From an uncultured Ruminococcus sp. (GTDB lineage Bacteria; Bacillota; Clostridia; Oscillospirales; Ruminococcaceae): DNA of 64,000 nt. This document shows positions 7,982 to 52,608 of this stretch, piece after piece (positions within the stretch are counted from its first letter, which is position 1; every line of letters starts with the position of its first letter). A model generated the notes under the pieces. That model made no database searches. It was not told where the DNA came from and saw only the letters and a program-made list of their open reading frames with translations. Both the position numbers and the translations under genes were made by a program. The stretch lies in contig CAMKMD010000006.1 in the NCBI GenBank assembly GCA_946413815.1, positions 1-64,000 on the forward strand, given 5' to 3'.

Positions 7982-8560
7982 TTAGTTAAACAGTCCGGAG
8001 AATCCCATGAAGCTCACGGACACGATGGAGGCGGCTATCAGTGTTGCGGGGACACCCTTGAAGGTCTCCGGGATATCGGCATACTCCAGCTTTCTGCGGA
8101 CACCTGAGAAGATCACCAGCGCAAGCATGAAGCCAAGTCCGGCACCAAGTGCATTGACAAGAGACTGTATAAAACTGTAACCGTTGTCGATGTTAAGTAC
8201 TGTTACACCAAGAACCGCGCAGTTTGTTGTGATGAGCGGCAGATATACACCCAGCGACTTATAAAGTGAGGGGATGGTCTTTTTCAGTGCCGTCTCAACG
8301 AGCTGTACGAAAAGTGCGATGACCAGAATGAATACAACAGTATCGAAGTATTCAAGGCCGTTGGGGACGAGAAGTCCGTGATGGATCGGATATGTAACTG
8401 CCGTTGCACATATCATAACGAAGGTTACGGCAATGCCCATACCTGACGCACTGTCAAGCTTCTTTGAAACTCCGAGGAAGGGACAGATACCCATGAACTT
8501 TGAAAGAACAAAGTTATCGGTAAGCATTGCAGAGAGAAGTATTATCATCATGCTTTTCAT
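7982..8560 (-). CDS. rnfA: Rnf electron-transport complex subunit A
   Basis: RnfA is a six-helix integral membrane subunit of Rnf, homologous to RnfE and NqrE. The 192-aa protein begins with the family pattern DNFVLSKFMGICPFLG and keeps LPLITTNCAVLGV in the middle; the conserved Cys residues of these two stretches are thought to bind an iron-sulfur cluster within the membrane. The start overlaps the rnfE stop by 4 nt, which suggests translational coupling. Full length for the family. Confidence 0.97.
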   Translation of the reverse strand: MKSMMIILLSAMLTDNFVLSKFMGICPFLGVSKKLDSASGMGIAVTFVMICATAVTYPIHHGLLVPNGLEYFDTVVFILVIALFVQLVETALKKTIPSLYKSLGVYLPLITTNCAVLGVTVLNIDNGYSFIQSLVNALGAGLGFMLALVIFSGVRRKLEYADIPETFKGVPATLIAASIVSVSFMGFSGLFN

Positions 8561-9249
8561 TCTGACTTTTCCTCCTTTCCTTCATTGCAGCTTCCTGCCA
8601 TAGGGCATTTCTCGCAGCCCTCGCCGCCGCAGCTTATCTCGGCAGGCGGTTTTCTGTTAGCAAATCTGTTTACTACAGCTATTATCATTCCAAGCGTAAA
8701 GAAGCCTCCGGCAGGCATGATAAAGAGCAGCATGGGATTATTATGCAGAACAGGGATATCCATTCCCATCCACTGGCCCGCACCGATTATCTCGCGTACA
8801 GAGCCCATTGCGAAGAGGGCAAGAGTAAATCCGATTCCCATTCCTATCGCATCAAAGGCCGAAGCGATAACTCCGTTCTTGCTTGCAAACATCTCTGCAC
8901 GTCCGAAGATTATGCAGTTTACAGTTATAAGTGTGAGATAGATGCCAAGGCTTGCATACAGTGAAGGCACAAAGCCTTCAAGCAGGAATCCTATAAGAGT
9001 TACGAAACTTGCTATGATAACGATGAAAGCAGGTATCCTGACTTTATCAGGTATCACCTTTCTGAGTGCGGAAACAACGATATTAGAGCCAAGGAGAACG
9101 AATGTCGTTGCAAGGCCCATGCCGATGCCGTTCATTGCCTGGGTTGTTACGGCAAGTGTAGGACACATACCGAGGAGCATCACAAGTGTCGGGTTTTCCT
9201 TGATGATGCCTTTGGTCAGTTCCTGTGCAAGAGTCTTTTTCTCAGCCAT
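8557..9249 (-). CDS. rnfE: Rnf electron-transport complex subunit E with a Cys-rich tail
   Basis: RnfE is the second RnfA-like six-helix membrane subunit. Family motifs are NPTLVMLLGMCPTLAV (residues 19-34) and LTLITVNCIIFGRAE (105-119), each with the conserved Cys. The protein is 230 aa. After the last helix (about residue 197) it has a hydrophilic tail with four cysteines at about 207, 212, 215 and 221 (CGGEGCEKCPMAGSC), which I do not associate with classical RnfE. The tail could bind a metal or cluster on the cytoplasmic side. The gene overlaps rnfG by 8 nt and rnfA by 4 nt. Confidence 0.95.
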   Translation of the reverse strand: MAEKKTLAQELTKGIIKENPTLVMLLGMCPTLAVTTQAMNGIGMGLATTFVLLGSNIVVSALRKVIPDKVRIPAFIVIIASFVTLIGFLLEGFVPSLYASLGIYLTLITVNCIIFGRAEMFASKNGVIASAFDAIGMGIGFTLALFAMGSVREIIGAGQWMGMDIPVLHNNPMLLFIMPAGGFFTLGMIIAVVNRFANRKPPAEISCGGEGCEKCPMAGSCNEGKEEKSE

Positions 9250-9793
9250 TGAGTATCGCCTCCTTGTTGTTATTGTATGCCTGAAGTGCTGTTTCCACAG
9301 CCTTCTTCATTCCCTTTGAGGAGAATGTGGCGCCGCTGACAGCGTCAAGTGTGACCTCAGGACCTGACTGTCCGTAGAACTGCTCGCGGAATGTCCCGAT
9401 ATCTCTTACCTTTGAACCGAGGCCGGGAGTCTCTCCGAGGGAGACGAACTCGATACCTGATACAGCACCGTCCGCATCGATTCCCACAAGGATATTGATA
9501 CCGCCCTTGGAATAGCCGTCAGCCACTACCTGTACAGCCGTTCTGCCGTCAGATGTGACTGCGATATTCTCTATCCCCTCTCCAAGATCACCATCAAGAA
9601 GACGGCAGTCTACCTTGCCGAAAAGAGATTCAACACTGGTGCTGAATTTAAGAGCCTTCTGTTCTGCTATCCTGTCCTTTGTAAGTTCATAGGCAAAGGT
9701 CAGCAGCAGAGCAGCTGCTATACATATTATAGTAAGAACAACAGCAGGCTTGATATTATCCCATGCTCCGCTCTTTGTTTTTGCTTCACTCAT
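9242..9793 (-). CDS. rnfG: Rnf electron-transport complex subunit G (FMN protein)
   Basis: RnfG carries an FMN covalently bound through phosphate to a threonine and passes electrons within Rnf. The 183-aa protein has one N-terminal membrane helix (about residues 16-35), an ETPGLG motif near 121, and the flavinylation motif SGAT with Thr at about 156, inside an FMN-binding domain. It overlaps rnfD by 4 nt and rnfE by 8 nt. The flavin transferase ApbE is not in this window. Confidence 0.96.
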   Translation of the reverse strand: MSEAKTKSGAWDNIKPAVVLTIICIAAALLLTFAYELTKDRIAEQKALKFSTSVESLFGKVDCRLLDGDLGEGIENIAVTSDGRTAVQVVADGYSKGGINILVGIDADGAVSGIEFVSLGETPGLGSKVRDIGTFREQFYGQSGPEVTLDAVSGATFSSKGMKKAVETALQAYNNNKEAILNG

Positions 9794-10743
9794 TCTTTTG
9801 CAGCCTCCTTTGCTCCGAATACCTTGGTCCTTGTGAGCTGCTCAATATACGGCGTGAGTACATTCATAAGCAGTATGGAGAAGGATACGCCCTCCGGATA
9901 TGAACCGAAACGGCGGATAACAAAGGTTATGATTCCGCATCCGAGGCCGAATACTATTTTTCCCTTTTTGGAAATAGGTGTTGTGGCATAATCTGTAGCC
10001 ATGAAGAATGCTCCGAGGAATACTCCTCCGGCAAGGATCTGTGCTACAGGATCGCAGCCTGCTATCAGGCAGAGCACGAAAAGGCTTCCGATAAAGGAAA
10101 GAGGTGCTGCAAGAGAGATCATCTTTCTTGCTGCAAGATAAAGTCCACCGATGAGAAGTGCAAGTGCACATGTCTCACCGAGACATCCGCCTGTGTTTCC
10201 GAGGAAGAGATCCATCAGCGATGGCTGACCTGCTTCATCTGTACCTATATAAATAAGAGGAGTTGCACTTGAAACAGCATCGGCAGTCTTGTACCAGAAA
10301 GGCTTTACCCAGTTTGTCATAGCCGAGGGGAAACTTACCATGAGAACGATTCGTGCTGTTATAGCCGGATTGGCAAAGTTCTGTCCCAGGCCTCCGAAAA
10401 GCTGTTTTACTATCACTATAGCTGTAAAGCTGCCTATCACTGCCATCCAGAAAGGAAGAGTGACAGGAAGGTTCATTGCCAGGATAAGGCCGGTCACTAC
10501 AGCGGAAAGATCACCAATGGTATTTTCGCGTTTCATAAGCTTACGGCTGAGGAATTCAAATGCAACGCAGCTTACGATACATACAGCTGCAAGTGCAAGC
10601 GCCCTGAGGCCGAAGATCACGCAGCCTGCTATAAATGCCGGCATAAGGGCAAGTATAACATTGAGCATGATATGCGATGTCTTGAGATAGTTCTCGTCGT
10701 GAGGTGACGGAGAAACGACCAGTTTTCTGTTTTCCATACTCAT
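9790..10743 (-). CDS. rnfD: Rnf electron-transport complex subunit D (FMN protein)
   Basis: RnfD is the large membrane subunit thought to form the ion path together with RnfG. The 317-aa sequence is strongly hydrophobic with about eight or nine predicted helices. It contains FGGLGQNFANPA and the flavinylation site SSAT with Thr at about 161. It lies between rnfC (4-nt gap) and rnfG (overlap). Length matches the family. Confidence 0.97.
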   Translation of the reverse strand: MSMENRKLVVSPSPHDENYLKTSHIMLNVILALMPAFIAGCVIFGLRALALAAVCIVSCVAFEFLSRKLMKRENTIGDLSAVVTGLILAMNLPVTLPFWMAVIGSFTAIVIVKQLFGGLGQNFANPAITARIVLMVSFPSAMTNWVKPFWYKTADAVSSATPLIYIGTDEAGQPSLMDLFLGNTGGCLGETCALALLIGGLYLAARKMISLAAPLSFIGSLFVLCLIAGCDPVAQILAGGVFLGAFFMATDYATTPISKKGKIVFGLGCGIITFVIRRFGSYPEGVSFSILLMNVLTPYIEQLTRTKVFGAKEAAKE

Positions 10744-10747
10744 TACC

Positions 10748-12025
10748 TCACTTTCTCGGGATCAGCATCTTGGCGAGCTGATTGGTCTCTGCCAGTTTTC
10801 TGTTGGCAGGACAGACATAAGTACAGCTTCCGCAGTTCATACAGAGCATGACCTTCAGCTTCTTCAGATCTTCTATATCCTTGATCTTGTATGCACGGTC
10901 TATCTCAGTAGGCATAAGGCCGAGGGGACATACATTGACGCAGCGTCCGCAGCGGATGCAGGCTGTTGTTTTTCTGTCGTCATAGGTCTTGAATGCAAGA
11001 ACCGCATTTGAGGTCTTTACAACAGGCATATCCATATCAGGTATAGACATACCCATCATGGGGCCGCCGCCGATGAGCTTGATGACTTTATCTGTCTCTG
11101 TCTTGCAGAATTCAAGTATCTCACGGAAGGAAGTGCCGATGACAGCTCTTACGTTCTTGGGCTCACCGACAGCATTGCCGTCAATAGTAAGACGGCGTGT
11201 GACAAGAGGCATACCGGTCTTCACATATCTGTACAGGAATGCGATGGTGGATACGTTTATAACGATAACTCCGGTATCAGCCGGGAGAGTTCCTTCCTCT
11301 ACTATACGGCCTGAGGAGTTGTAGATGATGACCTTCTCAGCACCCTGAGGATAAACTGAAGGAAGTGTTATTACATCGATGCCGTCGATCTTAGCTGTAA
11401 GCTCGGTATACCTTGCGATGGCCTCCGGCTTGTTCTCCTCGATCGCCAGCTTTGCTACCTTGATCCCAAGGTACTTCATCACCATTTCGATACCGCCCAT
11501 TACAGATTCTGTATCCTCTGTAAGCTCGCGGTAATCGGCTGTTATGTAGGGCTCACACTCGGCTCCGTTGATAACAAGGGTATCGACCTCGTTCTTGGGG
11601 TTCAGCTTTATGTGTGTCGGGAATCCGGCACCTCCGAGTCCGCAGGAACCGCTTTCACGGACCGCCTTGATGAAGCTCTCCTTATCAGTTACGACGGGCG
11701 GATGCACCTCATCTGATACCGTCTGGAGACCGTCAGTTTCGATCTCGACTGCCTTGCAGACAGCACCCATTGCCGTCTGATAGTCACTTATTGCCGTTAC
11801 TTTGCCGGATACGCCCGAATGAACAGGTACGCTGAACGGAGCATCGCAGTCGCCGATCTTCTGTCCGACAGCAACAGTATCTCCGACCTTAACCAGCGGC
11901 TGACACGGTACGCCCATGTGCATAGACATCGGGATGCGCACCTTTCCCGGTATGGGAAAGTCAACTGTAGCACTGTTTTCCGTATTCTTACGGTGCTTCA
12001 GTTTTATGCCGTTGAGTCTTTTCAT
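10748..12025 (-). CDS. rnfC: Rnf electron-transport complex subunit C (NADH-binding)
   Basis: RnfC is the peripheral NAD(H)- and FMN-binding subunit. The 425-aa protein starts with a barrel-sandwich domain (residues about 20-100), then an NAD/FMN region with GLGGAGFPTHIKL, and then two [4Fe-4S] motifs, CIRCGRCVNVCP and CMNCGSCTYVCP, near residues 355-405. It opens the rnfCDGEAB operon. The ATG at 12025 has an AGGAG site 8-9 nt upstream and a good promoter at 12080-12108. The long Ala-rich C-terminal extension of proteobacterial RnfC is absent, as is normal for Clostridia. Confidence 0.97.
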   Translation of the reverse strand: MKRLNGIKLKHRKNTENSATVDFPIPGKVRIPMSMHMGVPCQPLVKVGDTVAVGQKIGDCDAPFSVPVHSGVSGKVTAISDYQTAMGAVCKAVEIETDGLQTVSDEVHPPVVTDKESFIKAVRESGSCGLGGAGFPTHIKLNPKNEVDTLVINGAECEPYITADYRELTEDTESVMGGIEMVMKYLGIKVAKLAIEENKPEAIARYTELTAKIDGIDVITLPSVYPQGAEKVIIYNSSGRIVEEGTLPADTGVIVINVSTIAFLYRYVKTGMPLVTRRLTIDGNAVGEPKNVRAVIGTSFREILEFCKTETDKVIKLIGGGPMMGMSIPDMDMPVVKTSNAVLAFKTYDDRKTTACIRCGRCVNVCPLGLMPTEIDRAYKIKDIEDLKKLKVMLCMNCGSCTYVCPANRKLAETNQLAKMLIPRK

Positions 12026-12079
12026 ATTATTCTCCTCTCCACTTTAGTACTTACTAACGATTTAACCGCAGATATAATT

Positions 12080-12108
12080 ATTATACTATATATCTTCAGA
12101 TAATTCAA
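12080..12108 (-). promoter_or_regulatory. Promoter of the rnf operon
   Basis: TTGAAT (12108-12103), 17-bp spacer, TATAAT (12085-12080), about 55 nt upstream of rnfC. Confidence 0.75.
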
Positions 12109-12199
12109 GCATTTTTTCGCTTTTTCTTATTTAAATATAATAATGTAACACCGGTAAAATGACAATAAAGGCAAAAAGCTGACAGAAATGTACTTTAAT

Positions 12200-12236
12200 G
12201 CCCCTCCCCTGCCGCATATTGCGGCGGGGAAGGGGC
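12200..12236. repeat. Strong GC-rich inverted repeat between rnfC and the AraC gene
   Basis: GCCCCTCCCCTGCCGCA and TGCGGCGGGGAAGGGGC form a 17-bp near-perfect hairpin with a 3-nt loop. The + strand side is followed by a moderately T-rich run; the minus side is not. It is separate from the AraC terminator. It may insulate the rnf promoter from upstream transcription. The rest of 12109-12288 shows no gene. Confidence 0.6.
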
Positions 12237-12288
12237 TCTATTCTTCGTCTTATTGCGCATATTGATGAATCTGTATGAATCTGAGAAA

Positions 12289-12320
12289 ACAAAAAACCGC
12301 CGTGCTTGAAACGGCGGTCT
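12289..12320 (-). terminator. Terminator of the AraC-family gene
   Basis: ACCGCCGT and ACGGCGGT form an 8-bp stem with a 7-nt loop, followed on the minus strand by TTTTTTG, starting 13 nt after the stop at 12332. Confidence 0.9.
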
Positions 12321-12331
12321 CGATGTTTATT

Positions 12332-13084
12332 TTATCTTTTAGCAGATCTTCTTGAACCTGACTGCGGGAAATATGTGTCTTTGTATTCCTTCGGCGTCAG
12401 TCCGGTATGTCTGCGGAACTGCTTGATGAAGTAGCTCTGTGAGCTGAAGCTGAGGTGATTGCTTATCTCAAGAGCAGTATAATCAGAGAAGCGAAGCATA
12501 TTCTCAGCTGCTTCTATTTTCTTCTCCATGATATATGAGCTGATGGCAACGCCTGTCTCTGCCTTGAACAGTCTCGATATATAAGGTACGCTGCAGCCTG
12601 CATGAGAAGCTATATCCTGAACAAGAAGCTTATCGTTCAGGTTATCGCTGATATAGTCAAGAATGACTGTCATTGTTCTCGGGTAGATGCGGCCTGTGCT
12701 GATCTGTCTCATCCTCTTGGTAAACTCGATAACGATCTCATAGTAAACTGAGTTGATCTCCTTCTCGTTGGTACAGAGCTCTGCACGCTGGAGATAGGCA
12801 TCACTGAGAGCCTGTGCCTCGTCCTTTGACATACCGCTTGAGGAGCAGTAACGTGTAAGAAGGGCGATAGTAACTACCAGATGATACTTCAGATCCTTGA
12901 GGTGATCTTCGCAGAGTTTGCCGAATCCATCCTCTCCGAGAGGGGCGAAGAGGGTTTTTACGGTCTCCAGATTACCGGAACATACACCTTTGCAGAATGC
13001 CAGTTCCCTTTCGATCGGAGCAAGATCTTCAGCAGTGTTGTTCACACCGGAACGGCAAGATCTTACTGTTGAATTATTTTTCAT
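12332..13084 (-). CDS. AraC-family transcriptional regulator
   Basis: This 250-aa DNA-binding regulator has a C-terminal AraC double helix-turn-helix (residues about 140-240). The first helix-turn-helix lies around VQDIASHAGCSVPYISRLF and the second ends in the family signature FSSQSYFIKQFRRHTGLTPKEYK. The N-terminal 130 residues look helical and do not resemble a cupin sensor, so the signal is unknown. The ATG at 13084 is preceded by AGGAGG and its own promoter at 13114-13142. It is divergent from the fusion regulator at 13259, so one may control the other or a shared target; this is inference. Confidence 0.9.
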   Translation of the reverse strand: MKNNSTVRSCRSGVNNTAEDLAPIERELAFCKGVCSGNLETVKTLFAPLGEDGFGKLCEDHLKDLKYHLVVTIALLTRYCSSSGMSKDEAQALSDAYLQRAELCTNEKEINSVYYEIVIEFTKRMRQISTGRIYPRTMTVILDYISDNLNDKLLVQDIASHAGCSVPYISRLFKAETGVAISSYIMEKKIEAAENMLRFSDYTALEISNHLSFSSQSYFIKQFRRHTGLTPKEYKDTYFPQSGSRRSAKR

Positions 13085-13113
13085 ACTATACCTCCTGTGA
13101 TTTGTATATGTAT

Positions 13114-13142
13114 ATTTTACACCTTGTTTTAGTATGATTCAA
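13114..13142 (-). promoter_or_regulatory. Promoter of the AraC-family gene
   Basis: TTGAAT (13142-13137), 17-bp spacer, TAAAAT (13119-13114), about 30 nt before the ATG. Confidence 0.65.
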
Positions 13143-13184
13143 CCCCAAAATTGAATTTTTAGTGCCGAAAATGAAGAAAACCTA

Positions 13185-13213
13185 TTGCAATTAGAGTAAT
13201 ATTATGATATATT
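13185..13213 (+). promoter_or_regulatory. Promoter of the fusion regulator
   Basis: TTGCAA (13185-13190), 17-bp spacer, TATATT (13208-13213). It is divergent from the promoter at 13114-13142. Confidence 0.55.
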
Positions 13214-13258
13214 ATTAAATGTATGATAGTAAATACTTATCCCGTAGGAGGTGATACC

Positions 13259-15487
13259 GTGAAGAATCATATTGATATCGGCATCATAACTGCACAGGCA
13301 GCTGATTCTGAACAGCGTCAGATTTTATGCGGTATCATCGGAGAAGCTCAGAAGCTGGGAATGAATTCCATCGTTCTTTCCAACATCTACAATTCTTCTG
13401 AATATTTTGCCGATGTTGAAGTAGAGAACCGTATCTATGATCAGATACTTTCAAAGCAGCTCGACGGTATCATCCTTACGGCTGAATCCTTCCTCAATCA
13501 GGAGCTACAGGCGCGTATCAACGGTCTTCTTAAGCAGAGAAGCGATATCCCGGTCATTGTAACCGGAGCCGAGATAGAGGGATTTGAGTGCATAAACAAT
13601 GATGTCCGCGCCGATACAAAAGATATCATCGATCATCTTATCGAAGCACACAGCTTCTCCAGGATCGATTTTCTCACAGGTCCGGCTGAATATGATACCT
13701 CCATCCTCAGAGCCGAAGGATATAAGGATTCACTGTGCGCCCACGGTATACCATTCAGGGAGAACAGGGTAATTTACGGAGATTTCTGGATGAACTCAGG
13801 TGAGAAGCTTGCCGACGAATACATAAGCGGAAAACGACCGCTTCCGGAGGCTGTTGCCTGTGCAAATGACTACATGGCATACGGCCTTTGTGACAGGCTT
13901 ATGGAGAACGGTATCAGTATACCTGACAAGGTGACAGTTACCGGATATGAATATATCGGTTCAAGGTGCTATCATAACCCTATACTGACAACCTATCAGC
14001 GAAACAGAACTGCGCTAGGCGCCCGGGCTGCTTCCATTATCTACAGCAGGATCACGGGAAAACAGACTTCTCTTCCGGATATCAGCGGGCACATCGTGCT
14101 CGGCGACAGCTGTGCCTGCTGTGCAGATGATACTACTCTTTGTGCAGAGCTTTCGGCCATCCGAAGAGAGATGTTTTTCAGCCGGATGAACCTCACCGGA
14201 AACTTTGAGCAGCAGCTGACCATCTGCCGTTCTGTAAGCGATTATGTGGGTGTATTGCAGGAATTCGTCTATCTGATACGTGATATCAGGGGGCTGTATC
14301 TTTGCCTGCACGACAACTGGTGTAGCATGGAGCAGACTAAAGATCCCATGTCAGCAGAAACTGGTGACTCCATGATATGCTATACTATCATGCGTCCTGA
14401 CGGCAACTGTCCGAAGCCCGTCGTATTCCGCACTCTTGAAGAATTGCCGCCTGTTATCTGCCAGACAGACAAGGAGCTTGTATTGTATAACTGCCCTATA
14501 TTCTTTTCGGGCAAGTATTTCGGATATTTCATCCTGCAGTATGACCACGCGGACAGCTATGATATCATATTCCGGGACTGGCTGAAAACAGCTGCAAGCG
14601 CTCTTGAACTCCTGCGAATGAAGAATGACATCAACACGCTGCTTGAGTGCCGTGATCTTTCCGTTCAGCATGACTCAACTACGGGTATGCTTAACGAAAA
14701 GGGGCTTGAAAACGAGCTGCGCCTTATGCTGAGCAGAAATCCGGACGATCAGTCAATTGCGTTTGTTCTTATACGTACTGCAGCCTTTACAGATGACATC
14801 AATATAGATTCAAAAAGAGCAGGAATAGAACTCGACCGCAAGATCGCTTCTATCCTGACTTCACAATGCAGCATTTCCGATCTGTGCGGAAAGATCGCTG
14901 ACAAGACCTATGCTTTCATCAGGACTTCATTAAAAGGCGAAGATGACTTCAGGATGCTGCCCGACAGGATCTCCACTCTTATTGTATACTCGGAGCAGTA
15001 CCGTGAAAACTTCGGCCATGATTCTGTTATTATGTGCAGCCGGCAGTGCTGTACAAAGGACTTTGACTATAATACCATTCTCAGGGAACTGCTGGATGAA
15101 GCTGATGACAGGCTGTATACAAGCTCACTCCTTCACAGGAATCCCTATTACTCCGTATACTCCGGAGTGAGGGAGCTTATCTACAGCACCCCCTCCATAG
15201 ATCACAACTCGGCAGAAATATGCAGATCGCTGACTCATAGTGAGGGTTATTTCCGCTCTGTATATAAGGAGCTGTTTGGCATCAGCTTCCATCAGGACCT
15301 TATCAGGAGCCGAATCTCACTGGCTAAATACCTTATACTCACCTCTTCCATGAGCATAGAGATGATCGCGGAAAGCTGCGGTTATGTTGATACAAAACAT
15401 TTTTACCATCAGTTTCGGAAACTGACGGGAGTAAGTCCGAGAAAATACAAGCTCTCGGATCCTTCCGTAAACATAAAGGAGGGTTGA
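13259..15487 (+). CDS. Sensor/GGDEF-like/AraC fusion transcriptional regulator
   Basis: The start is GTG at 13259, because AGGAGGTG sits 5 nt upstream; the ATG at 13223 given by the ORF track has no such site. The protein is 742 aa. Residues about 1-290 resemble the LacI/PBP1-type sugar-sensing fold (IDIGIITAQ, ACANDYMAYGLCDRL, VTVTGYEYIG) but lack the N-terminal LacI helix-turn-helix. Residues about 300-480 are a linker or GAF-like region. Residues about 480-630 begin like a GGDEF domain (DSTTGMLNEKGLENEL), but the GGDEF signature is replaced by GKIADKTYAFI, so cyclase activity is unlikely. The C-terminal 100 residues are an AraC helix-turn-helix ending HFYHQFRKLTGVSPRKYK. It probably senses a small molecule and regulates nearby or distant transport or sugar genes. 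It may be cotranscribed with the GNAT gene 1 nt downstream. Confidence 0.85.
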   Translation: MKNHIDIGIITAQAADSEQRQILCGIIGEAQKLGMNSIVLSNIYNSSEYFADVEVENRIYDQILSKQLDGIILTAESFLNQELQARINGLLKQRSDIPVIVTGAEIEGFECINNDVRADTKDIIDHLIEAHSFSRIDFLTGPAEYDTSILRAEGYKDSLCAHGIPFRENRVIYGDFWMNSGEKLADEYISGKRPLPEAVACANDYMAYGLCDRLMENGISIPDKVTVTGYEYIGSRCYHNPILTTYQRNRTALGARAASIIYSRITGKQTSLPDISGHIVLGDSCACCADDTTLCAELSAIRREMFFSRMNLTGNFEQQLTICRSVSDYVGVLQEFVYLIRDIRGLYLCLHDNWCSMEQTKDPMSAETGDSMICYTIMRPDGNCPKPVVFRTLEELPPVICQTDKELVLYNCPIFFSGKYFGYFILQYDHADSYDIIFRDWLKTAASALELLRMKNDINTLLECRDLSVQHDSTTGMLNEKGLENELRLMLSRNPDDQSIAFVLIRTAAFTDDINIDSKRAGIELDRKIASILTSQCSISDLCGKIADKTYAFIRTSLKGEDDFRMLPDRISTLIVYSEQYRENFGHDSVIMCSRQCCTKDFDYNTILRELLDEADDRLYTSSLLHRNPYYSVYSGVRELIYSTPSIDHNSAEICRSLTHSEGYFRSVYKELFGISFHQDLIRSRISLAKYLILTSSMSIEMIAESCGYVDTKHFYHQFRKLTGVSPRKYKLSDPSVNIKEG

Positions 15488-42791: not shown

Positions 42792-43526
42792 TTATTTGCT
42801 TAGTAATCTGTCAAGCATTACCTGCCGGCACTGCTTTTCTAATGTGTCATCAAGAGGGGCAAGCTCTCCGCTGCCCCCGTTTCGGCTAAGGCAGTAGGAG
42901 ATCATATAGTCTGAAAGCTCAGGGTTCTTTGAGAGACATGGGCCGTGCATATACGTAGCTATGACATTCTTCTCCATGTAGCCCTCGTACCGGCTCTTTG
43001 AGCAGTTTCCGTTGCCGAAGAGCACCTCTCCGAGGGGCGTCTTCACATCATGAGTCTGGCCGCCGTGATTCTCAAATCCGACTACATCAACAGGCTTGCC
43101 TGTGATGCTGGTGCGGATGGCGATATTGCTTATACAGCGCATCTTTCTGCTGGAGGGAGCGACTGTGTAATAATCGAAGAGACCGAGACCGGGAATATCA
43201 TTTCCGTCTGCATCGCGGTAATACTTTCCCATGAGCTGATAGCCGCCGCATATGAGGAAGAGGAAGGTACCGTTATCGTAGGCGGCCTTGATACCGTCGC
43301 GGCAGCGAAGCAGGTCGGCTGAGATGTGCTGCTGCTCAAGGTCGGCTCCTCCGCCGATGTAGATGAGGTCATAGCTGCTGAAATCTGGCATATCGCCCCC
43401 GAGGGAGTAGGAATCGACAGTGCAGTCGATATCACGCATACGGCAGCGGTAGCGAAGTATCTCCATGTTTCCGCTGTCACCGTAAAGGTCGAGCATATCA
43501 CCGTACATATGGAGTATCTTTATCAT
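42792..43526 (-). CDS. gatD: Lipid II isoglutaminyl synthase, glutaminase subunit
   Basis: Class I glutamine amidotransferase that supplies ammonia to MurT for amidation of D-Glu in the lipid II stem peptide. The 244-aa protein has the nucleophile elbow LICGGYQLMG with Cys at about 93 and the catalytic His in TYMHGPCLSKNPEL at about 194. The C-terminal Glu of a classic triad is not obvious, as is usual for GatD. It overlaps murT by 4 nt. Confidence 0.96.
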   Translation of the reverse strand: MIKILHMYGDMLDLYGDSGNMEILRYRCRMRDIDCTVDSYSLGGDMPDFSSYDLIYIGGGADLEQQHISADLLRCRDGIKAAYDNGTFLFLICGGYQLMGKYYRDADGNDIPGLGLFDYYTVAPSSRKMRCISNIAIRTSITGKPVDVVGFENHGGQTHDVKTPLGEVLFGNGNCSKSRYEGYMEKNVIATYMHGPCLSKNPELSDYMISYCLSRNGGSGELAPLDDTLEKQCRQVMLDRLLSK

Positions 43527-44863
43527 TTCTGCTCACCTCCGTGTTTCTCACTGTATCGCTTCAGGGCAGCTCTTGTGGGCTGGACTGCGGTATAGTTGGC
43601 GATGACGAATTTTCTGCCGGGAGTCTTTGCAAGCTCCTCAACTGCTTCGTCAAGGTCGGGGCGCACTACGATATTTGCCGCATCATAGCCTGAGCATTTG
43701 ATACGTACAGCTATATCATAGGCTCTTGTACCTGAGGTCACGACTCTTGTTACACGCTCGAATATCGTAAAGTTGATATCGTATATCCATGAGACATCAA
43801 GTCCGTCTGCGATATTGTCGTTGAGGACAAAGAGAAGCTCCTTCTCGCCCTTCATCTCGTTCATTACTCTGAGAGTCATATTCGCACCAACAGGATTTTT
43901 GGCAAGATTGAGTGTTGCCTTGCGGTCGCCGAGCATGAAGTTCTCCATACGTCCGTTATTGACGGTATAGTTGTTTATGACGTTGTCTGTCACCTTCTGC
44001 TCTATGCCGTAAAGCTTTGCAGCTGCGGCCACGGCTGTCATGTTGTAAATATTGTATATGCTGTTGAGCTGAGGGCTGTAGGTATGGCCGTCAGCTGTGA
44101 ATTCCGGCTTGTCAAGATCGATGCCGGAGGCTGTGATATAGGGTTGCTCTGACCCGAAACCGCATTTCCGGCAGCGGAATCTGCCAATGTGGGAGTACTG
44201 GTAATAGTCATATACCAGAGCTTCGCCGCAGAAGGGGCAGAAGCGTCCCTCGGATGCTTCGTATATAGTATCTGTCGCAAAGGCATAAGGCTCTGCATGG
44301 AAATACTTTACATTCTTGTTCTCCGGATTTGCTCTGCCGAGACGAGCTGTGTTCGGGTCGTCACCGTTGAGTATCAGGTTGCCCGTAAATGTCTTGCAGA
44401 AGCCGTTTATTTTCTGTATCAGAGTCTCCATTTCGCCGTTTCTGTCGAGTTGATCGCGGAAGAAATTGAGAACTACAAGAGTCTCAAGCTTCAGCTGTGA
44501 GTAAACGACCGGCACATGGCTTTCGTCTGTTTCGAGTATGAGAAGGTCGGCATCAACTTTTCCCGAACCGTCACAGTATTTAAGAAGCATGGAGCAGATG
44601 CCTGTATCAAGGTTATTGCCCTCGCGGTTTATTATTATCTTTTTGCCGGACTGCTCAAAAAGCTGTGCGATACAGTTTGTGACCGAGGTCTTGCCGTTTG
44701 TACCTGTCACAGCGATTATTGGGCAGTCCACCTTGAACATCTTACAGGCCTTGCCGCCTGTAAGATGCCAGAGGATTATTCCGGGGAGATTTCCGGCATT
44801 GCGCTTGAAAAGCCGGAGAAATCCCACTACGATCTTGCCTATGAGTATAAGAAGTCTGTTCAA
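43523..44863 (-). CDS. murT: Lipid II isoglutaminyl synthase, MurT subunit
   Basis: Mur-ligase-fold subunit that activates D-Glu of lipid II with ATP for amidation by GatD ammonia. The 446-aa protein has the Mur P-loop VTGTNGKTSVTN, a four-Cys zinc ribbon (CPFCGEAL and CRKCGFG, about residues 205-230) that is specific to MurT, and the C-terminal DUF1727 domain. The start appears to be TTG at 44863, with GGGAG 9 nt upstream. It lies 19 nt after the large helicase gene with no terminator between, so it may be cotranscribed with it. Confidence 0.95.
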   Translation of the reverse strand: MNRLLILIGKIVVGFLRLFKRNAGNLPGIILWHLTGGKACKMFKVDCPIIAVTGTNGKTSVTNCIAQLFEQSGKKIIINREGNNLDTGICSMLLKYCDGSGKVDADLLILETDESHVPVVYSQLKLETLVVLNFFRDQLDRNGEMETLIQKINGFCKTFTGNLILNGDDPNTARLGRANPENKNVKYFHAEPYAFATDTIYEASEGRFCPFCGEALVYDYYQYSHIGRFRCRKCGFGSEQPYITASGIDLDKPEFTADGHTYSPQLNSIYNIYNMTAVAAAAKLYGIEQKVTDNVINNYTVNNGRMENFMLGDRKATLNLAKNPVGANMTLRVMNEMKGEKELLFVLNDNIADGLDVSWIYDINFTIFERVTRVVTSGTRAYDIAVRIKCSGYDAANIVVRPDLDEAVEELAKTPGRKFVIANYTAVQPTRAALKRYSEKHGGEQK

Positions 44864-44882: not shown

Positions 44883-47800
44883 TTACTTCTGTTCTGAGAA
44901 ACTTACCTTTCCGTCTTCGCTGAATTCAATATATCCGCGGTTCTTTGCGGCCTTCATACCGAGTGATACGGCTTCGGTTATGGTGTCGGTAATGCGTGAG
45001 AAACCGAAGAGGCGAGCCGTCTCGCGGATCAGATCCTCGCGCTGCATAGCTACCTGCTCCTCCATGATAAGGCGGATTCCGTTTGCTATCTCCTCAGGCG
45101 CTATCTCGTCCATTGAACGCTTTGCGTCATCTGAAGCCTGCGCACGGCAGAGCGTATACTCATCAGGCACCTGTCCGGGCTTCCAGAGGAAGGCGTCTTC
45201 CCCTGCTGTTACTGCAACCGCACCGGATCTTGCTATAGCGGCATCAGCTGTCTTCTTCATGACTTCACCGGCTCTTGTTATGCCAAAACAGCTGAAGAGC
45301 TTCTTGCGGAGCACGTTCCTGCTTACCGGTGCTTCTGCTTCAAGGATATCATTTACGCATTTCACGATCTTAGTCTCGTTGTCCTCTGTGAATTTTTCAG
45401 AAGGACCGTATTCCTTGATCTTGAAGGGTGTGAACTTGTCACACTTGTCTGCAAGTGCGCTTACTTCCTCTGTTTCAAACACGAGCTCAGCAGACTTCTT
45501 AGGTTCCTCTTTGACTGTTTCTGCAGGGTTGCGGTAACGCTCAAGTGCTGCTGCGATCTCGTCCTCAATCTTCTTTATGGCCTTCTCCTTGTTGTCGAGC
45601 CAGTCAAGGATATATACCGTTGTGGTATTCCAGCCGAGGCCCTTTAGTACGCCGGCCTGTGCAATGTGACGTTCCTTGGACATACCCGTATTGTACCAGT
45701 TCTTTCCGCAGCAGTTGATAGCAAGCAGATAGGTCTCCGGCTTGTCAGGATTAGCAACGGCAACGTCGATCTTGTAGTCAGAGCAGCCGACTGAACAGTT
45801 TGCTGTATATCCACGCTTTCTCAGTTCCTCTGCTACTACCTGCTCAAAGCCTTTTCCCGCAGACGAGGAATTAGTACGTACATTTAGCGCACTTCTGCCC
45901 TTGGCTGCGAATTCAAGGAAGCCCTTCAGGCCTTCAACGCCGTCAGAGCGTGTGCGGCTGAGATCGATCATTTCCGGTGTAATTACAGAGAATACTATCA
46001 TCTCACACTTTGAACGTGAGATCGCTACGTTGAGACGTCTCCAGCCGCCGTCACGGTTGAGCGGACCGAAATTCATGGAGACCTTACCTTCCTTGTCGGG
46101 GCCGTAGCCAATAGAGAACATGATGACATCGCGTTCATCACCCTGTACATTTTCAAGGTTCTTGATTATGATGGGTTCGTACTGCTCGTTGGCCCACTGC
46201 TCAAGCTCCGGACGGGCACGATAAGCGTCCGTCAGGAGATCGTCCACAAGGTTCTGCTGCGGAAGGCTGAACGTAACTACACCGATACTCTGCTTCCTGA
46301 GTACAGGATCCTCAAGTCTTCTTGTGATCTCAGCCACGATAGCCTGAGCTTCGGCCTTGTTTGTGCGTGTGGAGCTCTTGTCATAGTAACCGTCAACGTG
46401 TACCCAGCTGACCTTGGATATCTGGTCATCGGGAGACGGGAAGGTATAGAGCTTATTATCGTAGTACTTTACGTTGCTGTAGGCGATAAGGCTCTCATGC
46501 TGTGAGCGGTAATGCCAGAGCAGATGCTGCTGCGGCATTGAAAGCGCAAGACAGTCATCAAGAACGCTCTCCAGGTCTTCCTTCTCGTAGTTCTCCTCAT
46601 CCACCTGACTTGTGCTGAAGAAGCTTGTAGGAGGAAGCTGCCTTGGGTCGCCGACAACTATGACATTCTCGCCTCTTGCAATGGCGCCCACTGCCTCACT
46701 TGTTGGAAGCTGTGAAGCCTCATCGAAGATTACGAGATCAAATTTCGGGTATGAAGGATCGATGTACTGAGCGACAGAGATGGGGCTCATGAGCATTACC
46801 GGGCACATCCTTCGCAGGAGGTTAGGAATGCTGTCAAACAGCTTTCTTATGGACATCATCCTGCCGTTGCTCTTTATAGCCTTCTGGAGTATGCCTATCT
46901 CGGAGCTTGCGGCGGAAGTGCCTGCTGCGGGCACCTTGGCTGAAAGCTCGGCAACGAGCTCATTGATGGTGAGCTTGGAGAAGTTTTCAAGAGCTTCATT
47001 GTATTTTCTTATAGTATCTTCAAACAGTACTCCCTGGAACTTGCTGAGAACGGGCTCGGAGCTGATAACTGAAGTCACTATCGCACGGCTGAGATCGCTG
47101 TCGAAGGCTTTTGTGAGCTCCGATGTGCTGACCTTGCCTGAAAGATAATTGTCTGCAATATTCCCTATACCGTAATCACGCAGTTTCTTACTGAGTGTTA
47201 CGATGCCCGCCCATTCCTTGAGCTGAGGAAGAGCGCCTATGATATCATCAGCCTTGCGGGCGGCTTCATTCTCCCAGTCACTGCCGGATGAGAGCATTGA
47301 TGTATCAATGGAGTAGTTCGTCTCCAGTTCTTTGAGTACGCTTTCAAGCTCGCCGAAGGATTCGTTAAGCTTGTCGGTCTCTGCCTTGCTTGCCTGCTTC
47401 TGTGAAGGTGTTCCGTATCTTTCACAGACTGCCCTGGACATCCTTGTCTTGTCATCACGGTCAAAAGCAGAGTTCAGTAGTCTGTTTCTTATACTTTCGG
47501 AGGAGGTCAGCGCCTTGTCAGCGATCTCCCAGTCGGTATCCTGAGACTGCCATATGGAGCCGAAGGCAGCAAGGACATCCGGTGAAACGGAATCGATGCT
47601 TTCTGAAAGCTCTCTGGCACGGATTATCTTTTCATACCATCCGGAGATGTTTTCTTTGTTGACAGTATCCCGGCTCTTGCTGTGTACAGCAAGCTCCTTC
47701 ACGAGCTTCTTGCTCTTTATAGCTTTGGGCAGGAACCATTTCTCCTGTACGGCCTTCCAGTTCTGCTGGGCGGCAGCTGCATCGTAGGAAAGGACTGATG

Positions 47801-50684
47801 ACTCGAATTTATCGAGAAGCTCTGTCTTCAGCGTACTGAGCTCCCTGCCGTTTTCTATAACCTTGAGCACAGCGGGCTGCCTGATATCCCAGTCAGTGCT
47901 GTCAACAATGCCGGGGAGTATATATCCTCCGGACATAGCTTCACTTATGATGCCGGATATCTCACGGCACTGATCAAGAGTCAGTTCGCTCCTGCCGGAA
48001 AATCCGCTCAGGAAGGCCTTCTGAGTACCGGCCTTTGAAAGGGCGCTCTTCAGTTCTGAGAGCTTTGCTTCAAGGTTCGGCCTTGTCTGCGGGGTGCAGT
48101 TATCAAGACGGCAGCAGGTCAGAGGAGTTGCTGTCACATCTCCGAATTCCCTGCCGGCTGCAGCAAGGCTCTCAAGTGCCTCGTGCCATTTTGTATAGGA
48201 ATCAGAGCTCATGGCGTTGAGCTGTGACTCTGTAAAGCTGAACTTTCCTCCGTATTGCTTGTTCTGTTCATACCTTACTGCCGCATCATACAGAGACATA
48301 CCGAAACTGCGTACTTTATGGATGGCCTCCATAGTGCCGTTGAGCTCCTGTCTGAGTTCGCTGATCCTGTCAGCCTGCGCCTTGTATTCGGCAGGCTGCT
48401 TGATCCTGCCTATATTGAGAGTATCCTCCAGCTGCTTGAGAACATAGCGCTTCTGTGCCTTGTTGGAATGGAGCTCAAGACAGAAGGGTGCAAGACCGAT
48501 CTTGTTGAGACGCTTTTCTACTACTTCAAGGGCTGCCATCTTCTCTGCCACGAAGAGTACGAATTTGCCGTGATGCAGGGCATTGGCTATCATATTGGTG
48601 ATGGTCTGGGATTTGCCTGTACCGGGAGGCCCATGGAGGACGAAGCTCTGTCCGGAGTTTGCCGCACATACAGCGGCAAGCTGTGATGAATCGGCTGCTA
48701 CAGGGACTGCAAGATCTGCAGGAGCGATCTTTGTATCAAGCTCGAGAGGAGGGATGTTCAGATCCTCAGCCTCCCATTCTGTCTTGCCAGACATGAGACT
48801 GGCAACGACCTTGTTTGCGGCAAGCTCATCCGCACGGTTGCGGATATCATTCCACATGATAAAGCGGTTGAAGGAGAACTGTCCTATAAAGGCGAACTCC
48901 TCTATCTCCCAGCGGGATTTCGCCATAACGCCCTTACGGATGGTACTGAATATCAGCGGGAGGTTTACTCCGTTCTCGTCCTCCGGTACGGGGGTAAGTC
49001 CTGAGATATCTATACCGTAGAACTGTCTGAGCATTTCAAGGAGAGTGATGTTGAACTGAGTGTCCTCATCGCGTACCTTGATGCTGTAGGAATTGTCCTG
49101 TACCTTGCGCGTGATATCAACAGGAATGAGCACAAGAGGAGCATAGCGCGCCTTCTCACTCTTTTCGGTCTCATACCAGCGCAGGAAACCAAGTGCAAGA
49201 TAGATGGTATTCGCACCGTTTTCCTCGATGCTGACTTTGGCCAGACGTGTGAGCTTCTTCATTGCCTTGTCAAGGTCGGATTCCTTCAGGAAGGTGCGCA
49301 GGCGCTGATTCTTCAACTCTGCATCGGCAATGGCAGAGATCTGTTCCTTCTGCTCTGTAGGTTCGTATATCTTGCTCTCTGAAGGCTCAAGTGCCAGATC
49401 GTTAGGTACAGCCATGACCTTGAATTCAAGGCCCTTCGAGACCTCGTCCTCAATTGATCCGAGACCGGATGTCATGAGCTGCACGCTGAGAGCGGTCGCA
49501 CGGAAATTCAGAAGGCTGTTCCGAAGACTGAGGTCAAGGAGCTTTCTCTCCCATATTACCTGCTTGGTGACTTCCTTAGCTTCCTCGGGACGGATATCGC
49601 CGATTATCTCAAGCTCACTCGGAGCGGAAGTTATATCATCTTTTTTGCGGGCACCGTAGTCAACTGCCTGATAGGAACCGTTTTCAAGGACACGGGCCGG
49701 CATAGGTCTGATACCGCTTGCGCGTGTACGGCTGATATCTATTGCAAAAACAAAGTTTTCAGGTTCATCGAAACAGGCGAGTGCATCTTTCTCGGCGTTG
49801 TCGAAATCGACGCTCTTTCCGGCTACAAAGTCTGTACACTCAACGGCGCAGAGGGCATTGACTCCTCTGGCCATTCGCTTTGTGACGGCAGACACGTCAT
49901 ATTGCAGGCAGTCCGGGAAGGTCTCCGCATCAAGCCAGCATCCCGCAAAGGCGTGTCCTTTGACAACAAAGAGTATAGGGTTCAGGCCTACAGCTTCAAG
50001 ACAGGAGCAGAACAGGACAGAGAGATCAAGACAGGTGCCTGCCCTGCCGTCGATGACTGCATCGGGAGTGCGGATGCGCTGTGCAGTCTCGTAGCTGGCA
50101 GTGGGGGTTGTATAGGCTATATTCATTTCCTGGAGAGCCGCATATATGGCCGCTGCCTGATTGCGTACTATATTTGCGTTTCTGGTCTGATATCCTGTAA
50201 AGGCGGGATCTCCGCTCCACTTCTGCAGATACAGGCTTGCTCCGGAAACAACTTCCTGTACCTTCGGGTGATTCGGCATAACGAAAGCTGCTGCCATCTC
50301 CGGCATATTCTGTGAGCCTGTCCACTGGTCATAGGCAAGCAGTTCGACAGTACGCACCTCGGACGCTATCACCTCATCGCCCTGCAGTGCTTCAAGTGTT
50401 ACGCTGCCGATCATTTTTTCTGTAAGGCTGAAAAGATAATCGGACTTCATCACTATCTGGACAGGTGATACCGTCACTGACTGACCCGCTTCAATATCTA
50501 ACGGAACGGATTCAAAGAGATTTGCAAACTCCGGCTCAAACTTTATACGCAGCTTTACGCTCCGGAGATCCTCAGCGGAATTGTTCTTCATAACTACATT
50601 GCGGAATACCGGAACATAGTTCTGCTGAAGCGAAAAATTGATCTGGGCAGTCATTACCCCGTCAAAGGTTATCATGTTATCCAT
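44883..50684 (-). CDS. Transglutaminase-like/DUF4011 SF1 helicase/nuclease fusion
   Basis: A 1933-aa multidomain protein. Residues 1-115 are a beta-rich domain. Residues about 140-330 are a transglutaminase-like fold with GRAGTCLDLSVLF (Cys 218) and VKGHAFAGCW (His 244), so the cysteine protease-type dyad is intact. Residues about 375-640 match the DUF4011 region that precedes SF1 helicases. The helicase core follows, with Walker A HGPPGTGKSQTI (about 684) and Walker B FDLVIFDEASQLP, VVGDPRQLPPTS and QGDERDVIMFSIGYG. A Vsr/restriction-endonuclease-like domain follows (FEQVVAEELRKRGY, SVGCSDYKIDVAV), then a DUF3320-like C-terminus. Helicase-nuclease proteins of the DUF4011 type are linked to anti-phage defence. 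The murT-gatD-lysozyme genes follow. Function in this host is unproven. Confidence 0.85.
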   Translation of the reverse strand: MDNMITFDGVMTAQINFSLQQNYVPVFRNVVMKNNSAEDLRSVKLRIKFEPEFANLFESVPLDIEAGQSVTVSPVQIVMKSDYLFSLTEKMIGSVTLEALQGDEVIASEVRTVELLAYDQWTGSQNMPEMAAAFVMPNHPKVQEVVSGASLYLQKWSGDPAFTGYQTRNANIVRNQAAAIYAALQEMNIAYTTPTASYETAQRIRTPDAVIDGRAGTCLDLSVLFCSCLEAVGLNPILFVVKGHAFAGCWLDAETFPDCLQYDVSAVTKRMARGVNALCAVECTDFVAGKSVDFDNAEKDALACFDEPENFVFAIDISRTRASGIRPMPARVLENGSYQAVDYGARKKDDITSAPSELEIIGDIRPEEAKEVTKQVIWERKLLDLSLRNSLLNFRATALSVQLMTSGLGSIEDEVSKGLEFKVMAVPNDLALEPSESKIYEPTEQKEQISAIADAELKNQRLRTFLKESDLDKAMKKLTRLAKVSIEENGANTIYLALGFLRWYETEKSEKARYAPLVLIPVDITRKVQDNSYSIKVRDEDTQFNITLLEMLRQFYGIDISGLTPVPEDENGVNLPLIFSTIRKGVMAKSRWEIEEFAFIGQFSFNRFIMWNDIRNRADELAANKVVASLMSGKTEWEAEDLNIPPLELDTKIAPADLAVPVAADSSQLAAVCAANSGQSFVLHGPPGTGKSQTITNMIANALHHGKFVLFVAEKMAALEVVEKRLNKIGLAPFCLELHSNKAQKRYVLKQLEDTLNIGRIKQPAEYKAQADRISELRQELNGTMEAIHKVRSFGMSLYDAAVRYEQNKQYGGKFSFTESQLNAMSSDSYTKWHEALESLAAAGREFGDVTATPLTCCRLDNCTPQTRPNLEAKLSELKSALSKAGTQKAFLSGFSGRSELTLDQCREISGIISEAMSGGYILPGIVDSTDWDIRQPAVLKVIENGRELSTLKTELLDKFESSVLSYDAAAAQQNWKAVQEKWFLPKAIKSKKLVKELAVHSKSRDTVNKENISGWYEKIIRARELSESIDSVSPDVLAAFGSIWQSQDTDWEIADKALTSSESIRNRLLNSAFDRDDKTRMSRAVCERYGTPSQKQASKAETDKLNESFGELESVLKELETNYSIDTSMLSSGSDWENEAARKADDIIGALPQLKEWAGIVTLSKKLRDYGIGNIADNYLSGKVSTSELTKAFDSDLSRAIVTSVISSEPVLSKFQGVLFEDTIRKYNEALENFSKLTINELVAELSAKVPAAGTSAASSEIGILQKAIKSNGRMMSIRKLFDSIPNLLRRMCPVMLMSPISVAQYIDPSYPKFDLVIFDEASQLPTSEAVGAIARGENVIVVGDPRQLPPTSFFSTSQVDEENYEKEDLESVLDDCLALSMPQQHLLWHYRSQHESLIAYSNVKYYDNKLYTFPSPDDQISKVSWVHVDGYYDKSSTRTNKAEAQAIVAEITRRLEDPVLRKQSIGVVTFSLPQQNLVDDLLTDAYRARPELEQWANEQYEPIIIKNLENVQGDERDVIMFSIGYGPDKEGKVSMNFGPLNRDGGWRRLNVAISRSKCEMIVFSVITPEMIDLSRTRSDGVEGLKGFLEFAAKGRSALNVRTNSSSAGKGFEQVVAEELRKRGYTANCSVGCSDYKIDVAVANPDKPETYLLAINCCGKNWYNTGMSKERHIAQAGVLKGLGWNTTTVYILDWLDNKEKAIKKIEDEIAAALERYRNPAETVKEEPKKSAELVFETEEVSALADKCDKFTPFKIKEYGPSEKFTEDNETKIVKCVNDILEAEAPVSRNVLRKKLFSCFGITRAGEVMKKTADAAIARSGAVAVTAGEDAFLWKPGQVPDEYTLCRAQASDDAKRSMDEIAPEEIANGIRLIMEEQVAMQREDLIRETARLFGFSRITDTITEAVSLGMKAAKNRGYIEFSEDGKVSFSEQK

Positions 50685-50732: not shown

Positions 50733-50761
50733 ATAATAACATATTTTTCGATCCTTTACAA
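50733..50761 (-). promoter_or_regulatory. Promoter of the helicase-nuclease gene
   Basis: TTGTAA (50761-50756), 17-bp spacer, TATTAT (50738-50733), about 48 nt before the ATG. It is divergent from the SGNH promoter at 50832-50860. Confidence 0.6.
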
Positions 50762-50909: not shown

Positions 50910-51917
50910 ATGAAAAAGATCATTTCGATCCTTGCCGGACTCCCGTATATGGCCGTATTGTTCACCGTAGCCGTCTTCGGACTGATGGTGCTGCTCTGCG
51001 GTTCGGAGAAACTTCCGGAAGGACCGCTGACAAGAGATCTCTCAGTTATGGCGCAGGCTGCTCAGGAAACTACAGATACAACTGCTGAGACGACTGTGAC
51101 AACGACCGAGACAACTACTGCAGAAACTACAGAGGAAACTACCACGGAGACTACCGTGACTACAGAGACATCCACCGATACATCCACAGATACCGGTACC
51201 GAGACCACTGCAGATACCTCAGACTCAACCGCATCCGGCAGTTCCTCCGGTTCAGACACGCATACCCCTGCTGTGCCTAACGAAATATACAACTTCGTTT
51301 CAGCCGGTGAATCCCCGAACAGTGACTTCTATCAGAGCAGACTTACCGTTATAGGCGACTCAATTGCCTACGGCTTCAACTGCTACGGCTTTATCCCCAC
51401 AGAACACAACCTTGCTACCGAATCCGTTTCGATATGGAACTTCAACGAGTTCACCTTCGACAAGGGAGGCGGTACAATGAGTATCGTTGATGCTGCTAAC
51501 TATGTTCACCCGAGCCTGATATACATATCACTCGGTCTCAATGACGTGAACAATCACGATCCTGCCGGTTTTGCTGCCACCTACAGCGCTATAATCAGTC
51601 AGCTGCAGAGCTATATGCCCGATGCGGTCATAGTTATAGGAAGCATAACTCCCGTTTCCGCAGACTGCTGGTTCACAGACAATGCTACAATTATGGAGTA
51701 CAACAATGCCATCGCTGGAATGGCTGCCGGCTTCGCTTCACCGAGAGTGCTTTACTTTGACGCTTTCTCAGTTCTATGCGATCCCTATACAAACGCCCAG
51801 AACAGCGCACACGCCGGCGGAGACGGAATCCATCTCGGTCCGTCAGCCTACAGTCTTGTACTCTCATCGCTGTTCAATTTCCTCGACTATAACGGTGCGT
51901 CAGACCTTATATACTGA
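50910..51917 (+). CDS. Secreted or membrane-tethered SGNH/GDSL hydrolase
   Basis: A 335-aa protein. An N-terminal hydrophobic segment (about residues 8-30) may be a signal or anchor. A Thr/Glu/Ser-rich linker (about 53-117) follows, then an SGNH-hydrolase domain. Catalytic blocks are GDSIAYG (Ser about 151), GLNDVNN (Asn about 211) and DGIHLG (Asp about 305 and His about 308). Likely an esterase that deacetylates or deacylates cell-wall or plant polysaccharide; the substrate is unknown. The linker composition is shared with the GH25 gene and is typical of ruminococcal exported proteins. Confidence 0.9.
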   Translation: MKKIISILAGLPYMAVLFTVAVFGLMVLLCGSEKLPEGPLTRDLSVMAQAAQETTDTTAETTVTTTETTTAETTEETTTETTVTTETSTDTSTDTGTETTADTSDSTASGSSSGSDTHTPAVPNEIYNFVSAGESPNSDFYQSRLTVIGDSIAYGFNCYGFIPTEHNLATESVSIWNFNEFTFDKGGGTMSIVDAANYVHPSLIYISLGLNDVNNHDPAGFAATYSAIISQLQSYMPDAVIVIGSITPVSADCWFTDNATIMEYNNAIAGMAAGFASPRVLYFDAFSVLCDPYTNAQNSAHAGGDGIHLGPSAYSLVLSSLFNFLDYNGASDLIY

Positions 51918-51942
51918 CCGCATCTGATAAAGGAGTAATACT

Positions 51943-52608
51943 ATGGAAAATGCTACTATTCAGGAGCTGTTTGATCTCAACCACACTCTGGCCGCTGATT
52001 ACCTCAGAGGGTTTACCTATCCATGGGAGGCTTTAAAGGGCATCAGTGATTTCATAATCAGTCTCGGAAAAACCCTCAGCCCTGATGAATACGATCAGCC
52101 CTCGGAAAATGTATGGGTGCACAAGACAGCAAAGATATTCCCCACAGCTTATCTCGGAGCTCCCTGCATCATAGGTGCTAACACAGAGGTAAGGCACTGT
52201 GCCTTCATCAGAGGCAGTGCTCTGGTGGGTGAGAACTGCGTTGTGGGAAACTCCGTTGAGCTCAAGAACGTTATCCTTTTCGACAACGTTCAGACACCTC
52301 ATTACAACTACGTGGGTGACAGCATACTTGGATACAAGTCACATATGGGTGCAGGTTCCATCACTTCAAACGTTAAGTCTGACAAGACTAATGTGGTTGT
52401 CAAGGACTGCGATGAGTGTATTGAGACAGGCATCAAGAAGATGGGTGCCATACTCGGTGACTATGTTGAGGTAGGCTGCAACAGTGTACTCAACCCCGGT
52501 ACAGTTATCGGCAGATCGACTAATATATATCCCACAAGCTGCGTCAGAGGCGTTGTTCCCGCTAACAGCATCTATAAGACAGGCGGCATAATAGTTGAAA
52601 AGAACTAA
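51943..52608 (+). CDS. Hexapeptide-repeat (left-handed beta-helix) acyltransferase-like protein
   Basis: A 221-aa protein with a short helical N-terminus (about residues 1-50) and then repeated hexapeptide turns (VWVHKTAKIFPTAYLG, CIIGANTEVRHCAFIRG, LVGENCVVGNSVELKN, LGYKSHMGAGSITSN and later ILGDYVEVGCNSVLNPGTVIG). This is the coil of UDP-sugar pyrophosphorylase or acyltransferase LbH domains without a full nucleotidyltransferase domain. Likely an acetyltransferase or sugar-nucleotide enzyme of cell-envelope glycan assembly. It is 25 nt after the SGNH gene, so they probably form one unit. Confidence 0.85.
   Translation: MENATIQELFDLNHTLAADYLRGFTYPWEALKGISDFIISLGKTLSPDEYDQPSENVWVHKTAKIFPTAYLGAPCIIGANTEVRHCAFIRGSALVGENCVVGNSVELKNVILFDNVQTPHYNYVGDSILGYKSHMGAGSITSNVKSDKTNVVVKDCDECIETGIKKMGAILGDYVEVGCNSVLNPGTVIGRSTNIYPTSCVRGVVPANSIYKTGGIIVEKN

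Follow-up and report, generated by a model that had tools for sequence, protein, structure and literature searches.

Anti-phage helicases are generally thought to be paired with a nuclease. The closest described relatives of the protein analyzed here combine a DUF4011 domain with an SF1 helicase and belong to two curated families. The first, ProA, is represented by the NCBIfam model NF058533 ("anti-phage protein ProA"), an equivalog in release 20.0 (June 2026); a literature search on ProA, on DUF4011 with transglutaminase-like (TG-like) domains, and on DUF3320 found no description of ProA. The second, Hhe (DUF4011-helicase-Vsr; NF042953, PADLOC Hhe), shares with our protein the core of DUF4011, SF1 helicase, and REase. 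A third relative, the PADLOC candidate defence protein PDC-S37, is represented by a model that spans DUF4011 onwards and includes neither a TG-like nor a beta-sandwich part.

Family membership and domain layout

The window, by which we mean the whole analyzed stretch of 64,000 nucleotides, is part of contig 6 (CAMKMD010000006.1) of an uncultured Ruminococcus genome of 4.2 Mb in 151 contigs. It contains an intact open reading frame on the minus strand (44883..50684) that begins with ATG and runs for 1933 codons. The product matches NF058533 with 2121.5 bits, compared to a curated cut-off of 1500, and positions 1–1903 of the 1903-position profile align to residues 16–1897 with the N-terminal TG-like part included. 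Judged by this match, the protein belongs to the ProA anti-phage family, within a subclade that is predicted to be nuclease-dead. The initial annotation had put the locus forward as an undescribed system, which the end-to-end match rules out because the existing model already covers the TG module. Its description of a single 1933-residue protein in which a TG-like module is fused to a DUF4011 helicase is upheld by the open frame, the Pfam domains, and the TG fold found on homologues and in a structural model, and the proposed link to defence agrees with both the NF058533 name and a match to PDC-S37 (1251 bits, residues 378–1921). The anti-phage role is assigned here from the NCBI curated name rather than from experiment on the window protein. 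PADLOC also gives a weaker Hhe match; membership of Hhe is ruled out by an NF042953 score of 740.8 bits, compared to a cut-off of 2000. The closest named record is the protein of L079, a Ruminococcus MAG from water buffalo rumen, with 92% identity over the N-terminal 380 residues.

All features of the gene are given on the minus strand. The first domain (residues about 1–123, 50316..50684) is assigned to the beta-sandwich class on the basis of strands in an AlphaFold2 model and Foldseek matches to Ig-like and pilus-chaperone folds, and only to that fold class because the TM-scores are low. It is followed by the TG-like domain, of papain-like thiol protease fold (residues 124–332, 49689..50315), and by DUF4011 (residues 381–552, 49029..49544; Pfam PF13195, 5e-47). 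The 1A part of the SF1 helicase motor with its Walker A motif GPPGTGKS (residues 666–745, 48450..48689) is separated from motifs II to VI (FDEASQ, GDPRQLPP, HYRSQH, VAISRS; residues 1286–1598, 45891..46829) by a long, variable helical insert whose extent is taken from Pfam borders (residues 746–1285, 46830..48449); Pfam matches to the SF1 helicase cover residues 666–726 and 1313–1565. In the alignment of homologues, conservation along ProA is highest in the helicase core and lowest in the insert. The C-terminal part comprises an MTES_1575/Vsr-like REase with a degenerate active site (residues 1613–1710, 45555..45848; PF18741, 1.1e-21) and DUF3320 (residues 1767–1809, 45258..45386; PF11784, 1.5e-6). 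Upstream of the gene, a promoter-like site matching the consensus, TTGTAA-17-TATTAT with TG before the second hexamer (50733..50761, minus strand), lies about 49 nt before the start codon, and a ribosome-binding-like stretch precedes the ATG.

Some copies of the gene in the genus are split or truncated, for which MAG errors are a possible cause. In the Ruminococcus MAGs L130, L132, L136, and L129 the protein ends just past the REase, at about residue 1716 in window numbering, and DUF3320 is missing; the L129 copy is also split into two frames near residue 1002.

Genomic setting in Ruminococcus

The ProA gene is followed after 20 nt by murT, encoding the ligase subunit of lipid II isoglutaminyl synthase (43523..44863, minus strand; PF08353/PF08245), and then by its partner, a gatD-like CobB/CobQ glutamine amidotransferase gene (42792..43526, minus strand; PF07685). 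Both are conserved neighbours that we do not judge to be part of the ProA system. On the upstream side a GDSL-lipase and hexapeptide-transferase pair (50910–52608) is inverted in the lineage of the window relative to most relatives (L079 versus L080); in the GDSL-like hydrolase (50910–51917) a signal-like N-terminus is followed by a long mucin-like linker (TTETTTAETTEETTTETT) that is rich in Thr and Glu. We considered and rejected the possibility that the gene lies in a defence island or mobile element, since the neighbours scanned with Pfam are ordinary, including a topoisomerase/gyrase A-type subunit gene, and relatives show synteny at the site.

The fixity of this position raises the alternative that the protein serves Ruminococcus in genome maintenance, as a housekeeping helicase possibly expressed with murT-gatD, and not in defence. 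ProA stands directly before murT-gatD in all 20 genus relatives examined and likewise in most Ruminococcus flavefaciens-type loci. ProA distances correlate with those of murT and gatD (r of 0.85 and 0.89, values reached by 0/999 permutations in a Mantel test; murT and gatD correlate with each other at 0.82), which indicates a vertically inherited resident of this Ruminococcus site. A DUF4011 gene, its TG status left aside, also belongs to the core genome of P. aeruginosa (PMC10250203). Nevertheless, we consider a housekeeping role unlikely. ProA exceeds the cut-off in 32 of the 60 genus genomes and is missing from genomes that are 98–99% complete. Among the 12 genomes at least 90% complete that have no ProA, ten retain a close murT (80–84% identity), and one locus (G031/L182) presents a clean empty site in which the hexapeptide-repeat transferase gene, in other relatives a flanking neighbour of ProA, lies about 40 bases from murT. 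Retention of murT-gatD in ProA-free genomes indicates that the pair is independent of ProA and, judging by gene content, ProA is dispensable in Ruminococcus. The housekeeping distribution that the initial annotation named as an argument against defence is thus found in part: the site is fixed and vertically inherited in much of the genus, but the gene itself is absent from many near-complete genomes.

Outside these lineages the association dissolves. Loci of the R. albus type and those of other Clostridia have ProA at other sites, with no murT nearby, and a functional unit with murT-gatD is not favoured since each is found without the other. Elsewhere in the phylum few genomes have the gene, with 7 of 398 exceeding the cut-off, and TG-bearing relatives are found on 80 plasmid records, mostly from Pseudomonadota. 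The contig search yielded mostly Ruminococcus, with 80 of 435 relatives kept, and the sample of diversity comes from the genome search and the plasmids. Among the ProA loci compared, no neighbouring gene recurs across lineages, in line with the earlier statement that the protein has no recognized partner.

Two active sites with different fates

In DUF4011 proteins the REase motif consists of RID, then GIECDGxxYHS, then ARDRDR. The window protein has KIDVAV, then LLAINCCGKNWYNTGMSKERHIA; where GIECDGxxYH is expected stands LLAINCCGKNWY, and alignment with active relatives places Asn1657 (45714..45716, minus strand) at the position of the catalytic Glu of GIECDG. Asp1640 of SDYKIDVAV is present, and the ExD...H half of the site is lost (Glu, Asp1659, and His1664 are absent). 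When the motif was scored on an alignment of 74 sequences, Glu was found at position 1657 in 28/28 DUF4011 proteins outside the branch (17 without a TG-like domain and 11 with one, counting the split protein L163), and in 0/38 scorable proteins of the Clostridia/Bacteroides ProA branch. Across a wider set of Clostridia the count is 0/99 scorable loci.

Vsr itself lacks the REase Glu, and for this reason absence of the residue alone is not proof of inactivity. It could be argued that the REase is still an active nuclease working through an altered metal site, much as Vsr functions without an ExK glutamate, with the TG module as a regulator: Asp1640 and Arg1672 are invariant in 99/99 Clostridia loci, the Pfam match is strong, and the domain is under strong purifying selection, with dN/dS values of about 0.01–0.17, close to those of the TG domain, in close branch pairs with measurable divergence (dS approaches saturation in some cases, and a value from one pair represents about 100 codons). 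We consider this improbable, because the losses extend beyond the Glu. Position 1657 in the branch is occupied by M, N, S, F, L, or I, which is unlike a substituted catalytic residue, and Asp1659, His1664, Asp1673, and Arg1676, nearly invariant in active relatives, are lost, much eroded, or freely variable in the subclade. The best reading is that the REase of this branch is chemically dead, as predicted from its motifs, in which case "nuclease" is a wrong annotation for clostridial ProA proteins, and the purifying selection, similar to that on the TG domain, suggests that the domain is retained for a non-catalytic role. The Vsr-like nuclease of the initial annotation holds as to the domain and its Asp1640; an active nuclease is not supported, and the degeneracy of the site went unnoticed there.

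The TG-like domain gives the opposite picture in the counts. The window protein by itself matches Pfam Transglut_core weakly (residues 164–234, 0.0064, below the cut-off); of the 36 homologous domains compared, 31 match this family, the best at 5e-6, and 30 match the likewise TG-like family DUF553. An AlphaFold2 model of residues 124–332 has a pLDDT of 93.4 and a pTM of 0.92; it replaced an earlier run on residues 1–380 with 25 mostly close sequences, which reached a pLDDT of 74.5 and gave weak, mainly Ig-like matches. Foldseek matches of the model in the PDB are mostly TG-like or related thiol-protease folds, comprising two putative cysteine proteases, peptide:N-glycanase (PNGase), Rad4/XPC, TglA, LapG, and arylamine N-acetyltransferase; E-values of 0.0015 and weaker and low whole-target TM-scores mean that they identify the superfamily and not the function. 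When the TG alignment was used as a profile against PDB sequences, no meaningful match came back. A TG-like fold for residues 124–332 is supported by the homologue matches and the model, as the initial annotation had expected; the contrary outcome, which it had named as a refutation, did not arise. The Cys and His that it named are Cys218 (50031..50033, minus strand), the predicted nucleophile, and His244, and Asp263 is most likely the third residue of the predicted triad. In the Clostridia ProA loci Cys218 is kept in 108/109, His244 in 108/109, and Asp263 in 109/109. One Ruminococcus MAG (L138, RGIG5054; ProA at 7998–13805, plus strand) encodes a triad that reads A/R/D, with Cys replaced by Ala and His by Arg, in a frame that is otherwise open (1936 aa), the helicase part included, and is thus a natural triad-dead variant.

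The history of both sites was traced on a tree built by a quick IQ-TREE run from 676 columns of DUF4011 and helicase only, with the columns of the traits themselves excluded. TG-bearing proteins form one clade (SH-aLRT 98), so that the TG-like domain was most simply gained once, and the predicted nuclease-dead branch is nested within this clade with support of 100. Two changes of each trait, TG and the REase Glu, were counted. The Glu appears to have been lost twice, once basally in the Clostridia/Bacteroides branch and once in L167. Each loss falls on a TG-bearing lineage, and two events are too few to claim a statistical dependence of the loss on TG. A relative of 1441 aa without the TG module (L061/L178, G206:C6) has lost both the REase Asp (FKIPLAV) and Glu (AILMDN), and none of its neighbouring open reading frames was recognized as a separate TG gene; the protein is placed inside the ProA branch on a long branch, which makes its position unsure.

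In L167, from Acinetobacter baumannii plasmid p5637 (3143–8299), the REase Glu of a TG-bearing DUF4011 protein has been lost (GIIVDG), apparently independently, and a ThiF-family gene and a WYL-domain gene lie nearby. In L163, from Cyanobacterium sp. HL-69 plasmid pCHL69-2 (7695–14105), separate but adjacent open reading frames, annotated as two helicase genes, encode the TG part and the DUF4011-helicase-REase part, an arrangement that may reflect a natural split or a sequencing frameshift.

A candidate effector and comparison with known systems

Besides the ATPase, the TG-like site is the only intact catalytic site in the protein, and its triad is near-invariant (108–109 of 109) compared to an REase Glu found in 0/99 scorable Clostridia loci, which makes the TG-like protease the best candidate for the effector. 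The reading that we prefer, to which we give slightly less than even credence, is a DNA-sensing helicase whose effector is a TG-like cysteine protease. The DUF4011-SF1 helicase and the REase-derived module would together sense abnormal nucleic acid arising from phage infection, the helicase core being the likely sensor and motor and the REase fold, predicted to be dead yet constrained, a likely DNA-binding or gating module. ATP-driven movement would then unlock the N-terminal protease (Cys218-His244-Asp263), which would cleave a host or phage protein and so stop the infection. On this reading the ancestor had both nuclease and protease sites, as Pseudomonadota members still do, and the Clostridia/Bacteroides branch would have given up the nuclease chemistry and retained the protease. 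Counted against a protease effector are the loss of the triad in L138 with an open helicase gene, and L061, which has neither the TG module nor the Glu.

Some TG-like domains, that of Rad4 among them, are not catalytic. L138 and L061, together with the conservation of the helicase motifs and the presence of Rad4/XPC among the Foldseek matches, could indicate that neither site is the effector and that the helicase itself blocks or strips phage DNA, with TG and REase as binding modules after the manner of the Rad4/XPC domain, but this has little probability, since Rad4-type domains have lost the triad whereas here it is kept in 108 of 109, and since L138 and L061 are single cases that could be decaying.

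A broader, evolutionary form of the protease-effector reading is possible, although we regard it as somewhat doubtful. It holds that an effector switch took place in the ProA branch: a helicase-nuclease would have gained the TG-like cysteine protease once and then lost its nuclease chemistry, the fold being kept for DNA binding. The outcome would be an anti-phage system of one protein that senses DNA and acts by proteolysis, encoded in Ruminococcus by a resident gene at a single site. As far as could be checked, the Clostridia/Bacteroides branch appears to be a new, nuclease-dead and protease-intact variant by its predicted active sites, a combination that makes the effector question directly testable. 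Natural variants are at hand with both sites, with the protease only (the window branch), with the nuclease only (Hhe type), with a broken triad (L138), and with neither site (L061). If the protease is the effector, a single chain in which a DNA-sensing helicase controls a cysteine protease would be an unusual arrangement, and it would be worthwhile to find the substrate of the protease.

Compared to the known families, the window protein has the architecture of ProA from end to end. TG-bearing Pseudomonadota members score 2190–2372 bits against NF058533, and those tested all keep the REase Glu except Acinetobacter L167, whereas the Clostridia/Bacteroides subclade of the window is without it; membership by score does not demand an intact REase site, a feature that the window protein lacks. 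Hhe is about 39% identical to the window protein over the C-terminal helicase and REase, and its members L172 and L174 have no aligned TG triad and keep GIECDG. In Hachiman HamAB the effector is held in check by a sensor helicase, which releases it in response to abnormal DNA (PMC12278908). Its likeness to ProA is that of a model for how the protein might work, with no homology claimed: unlike ProA, Hachiman consists of two proteins with unrelated domains, and its effector is a nuclease.
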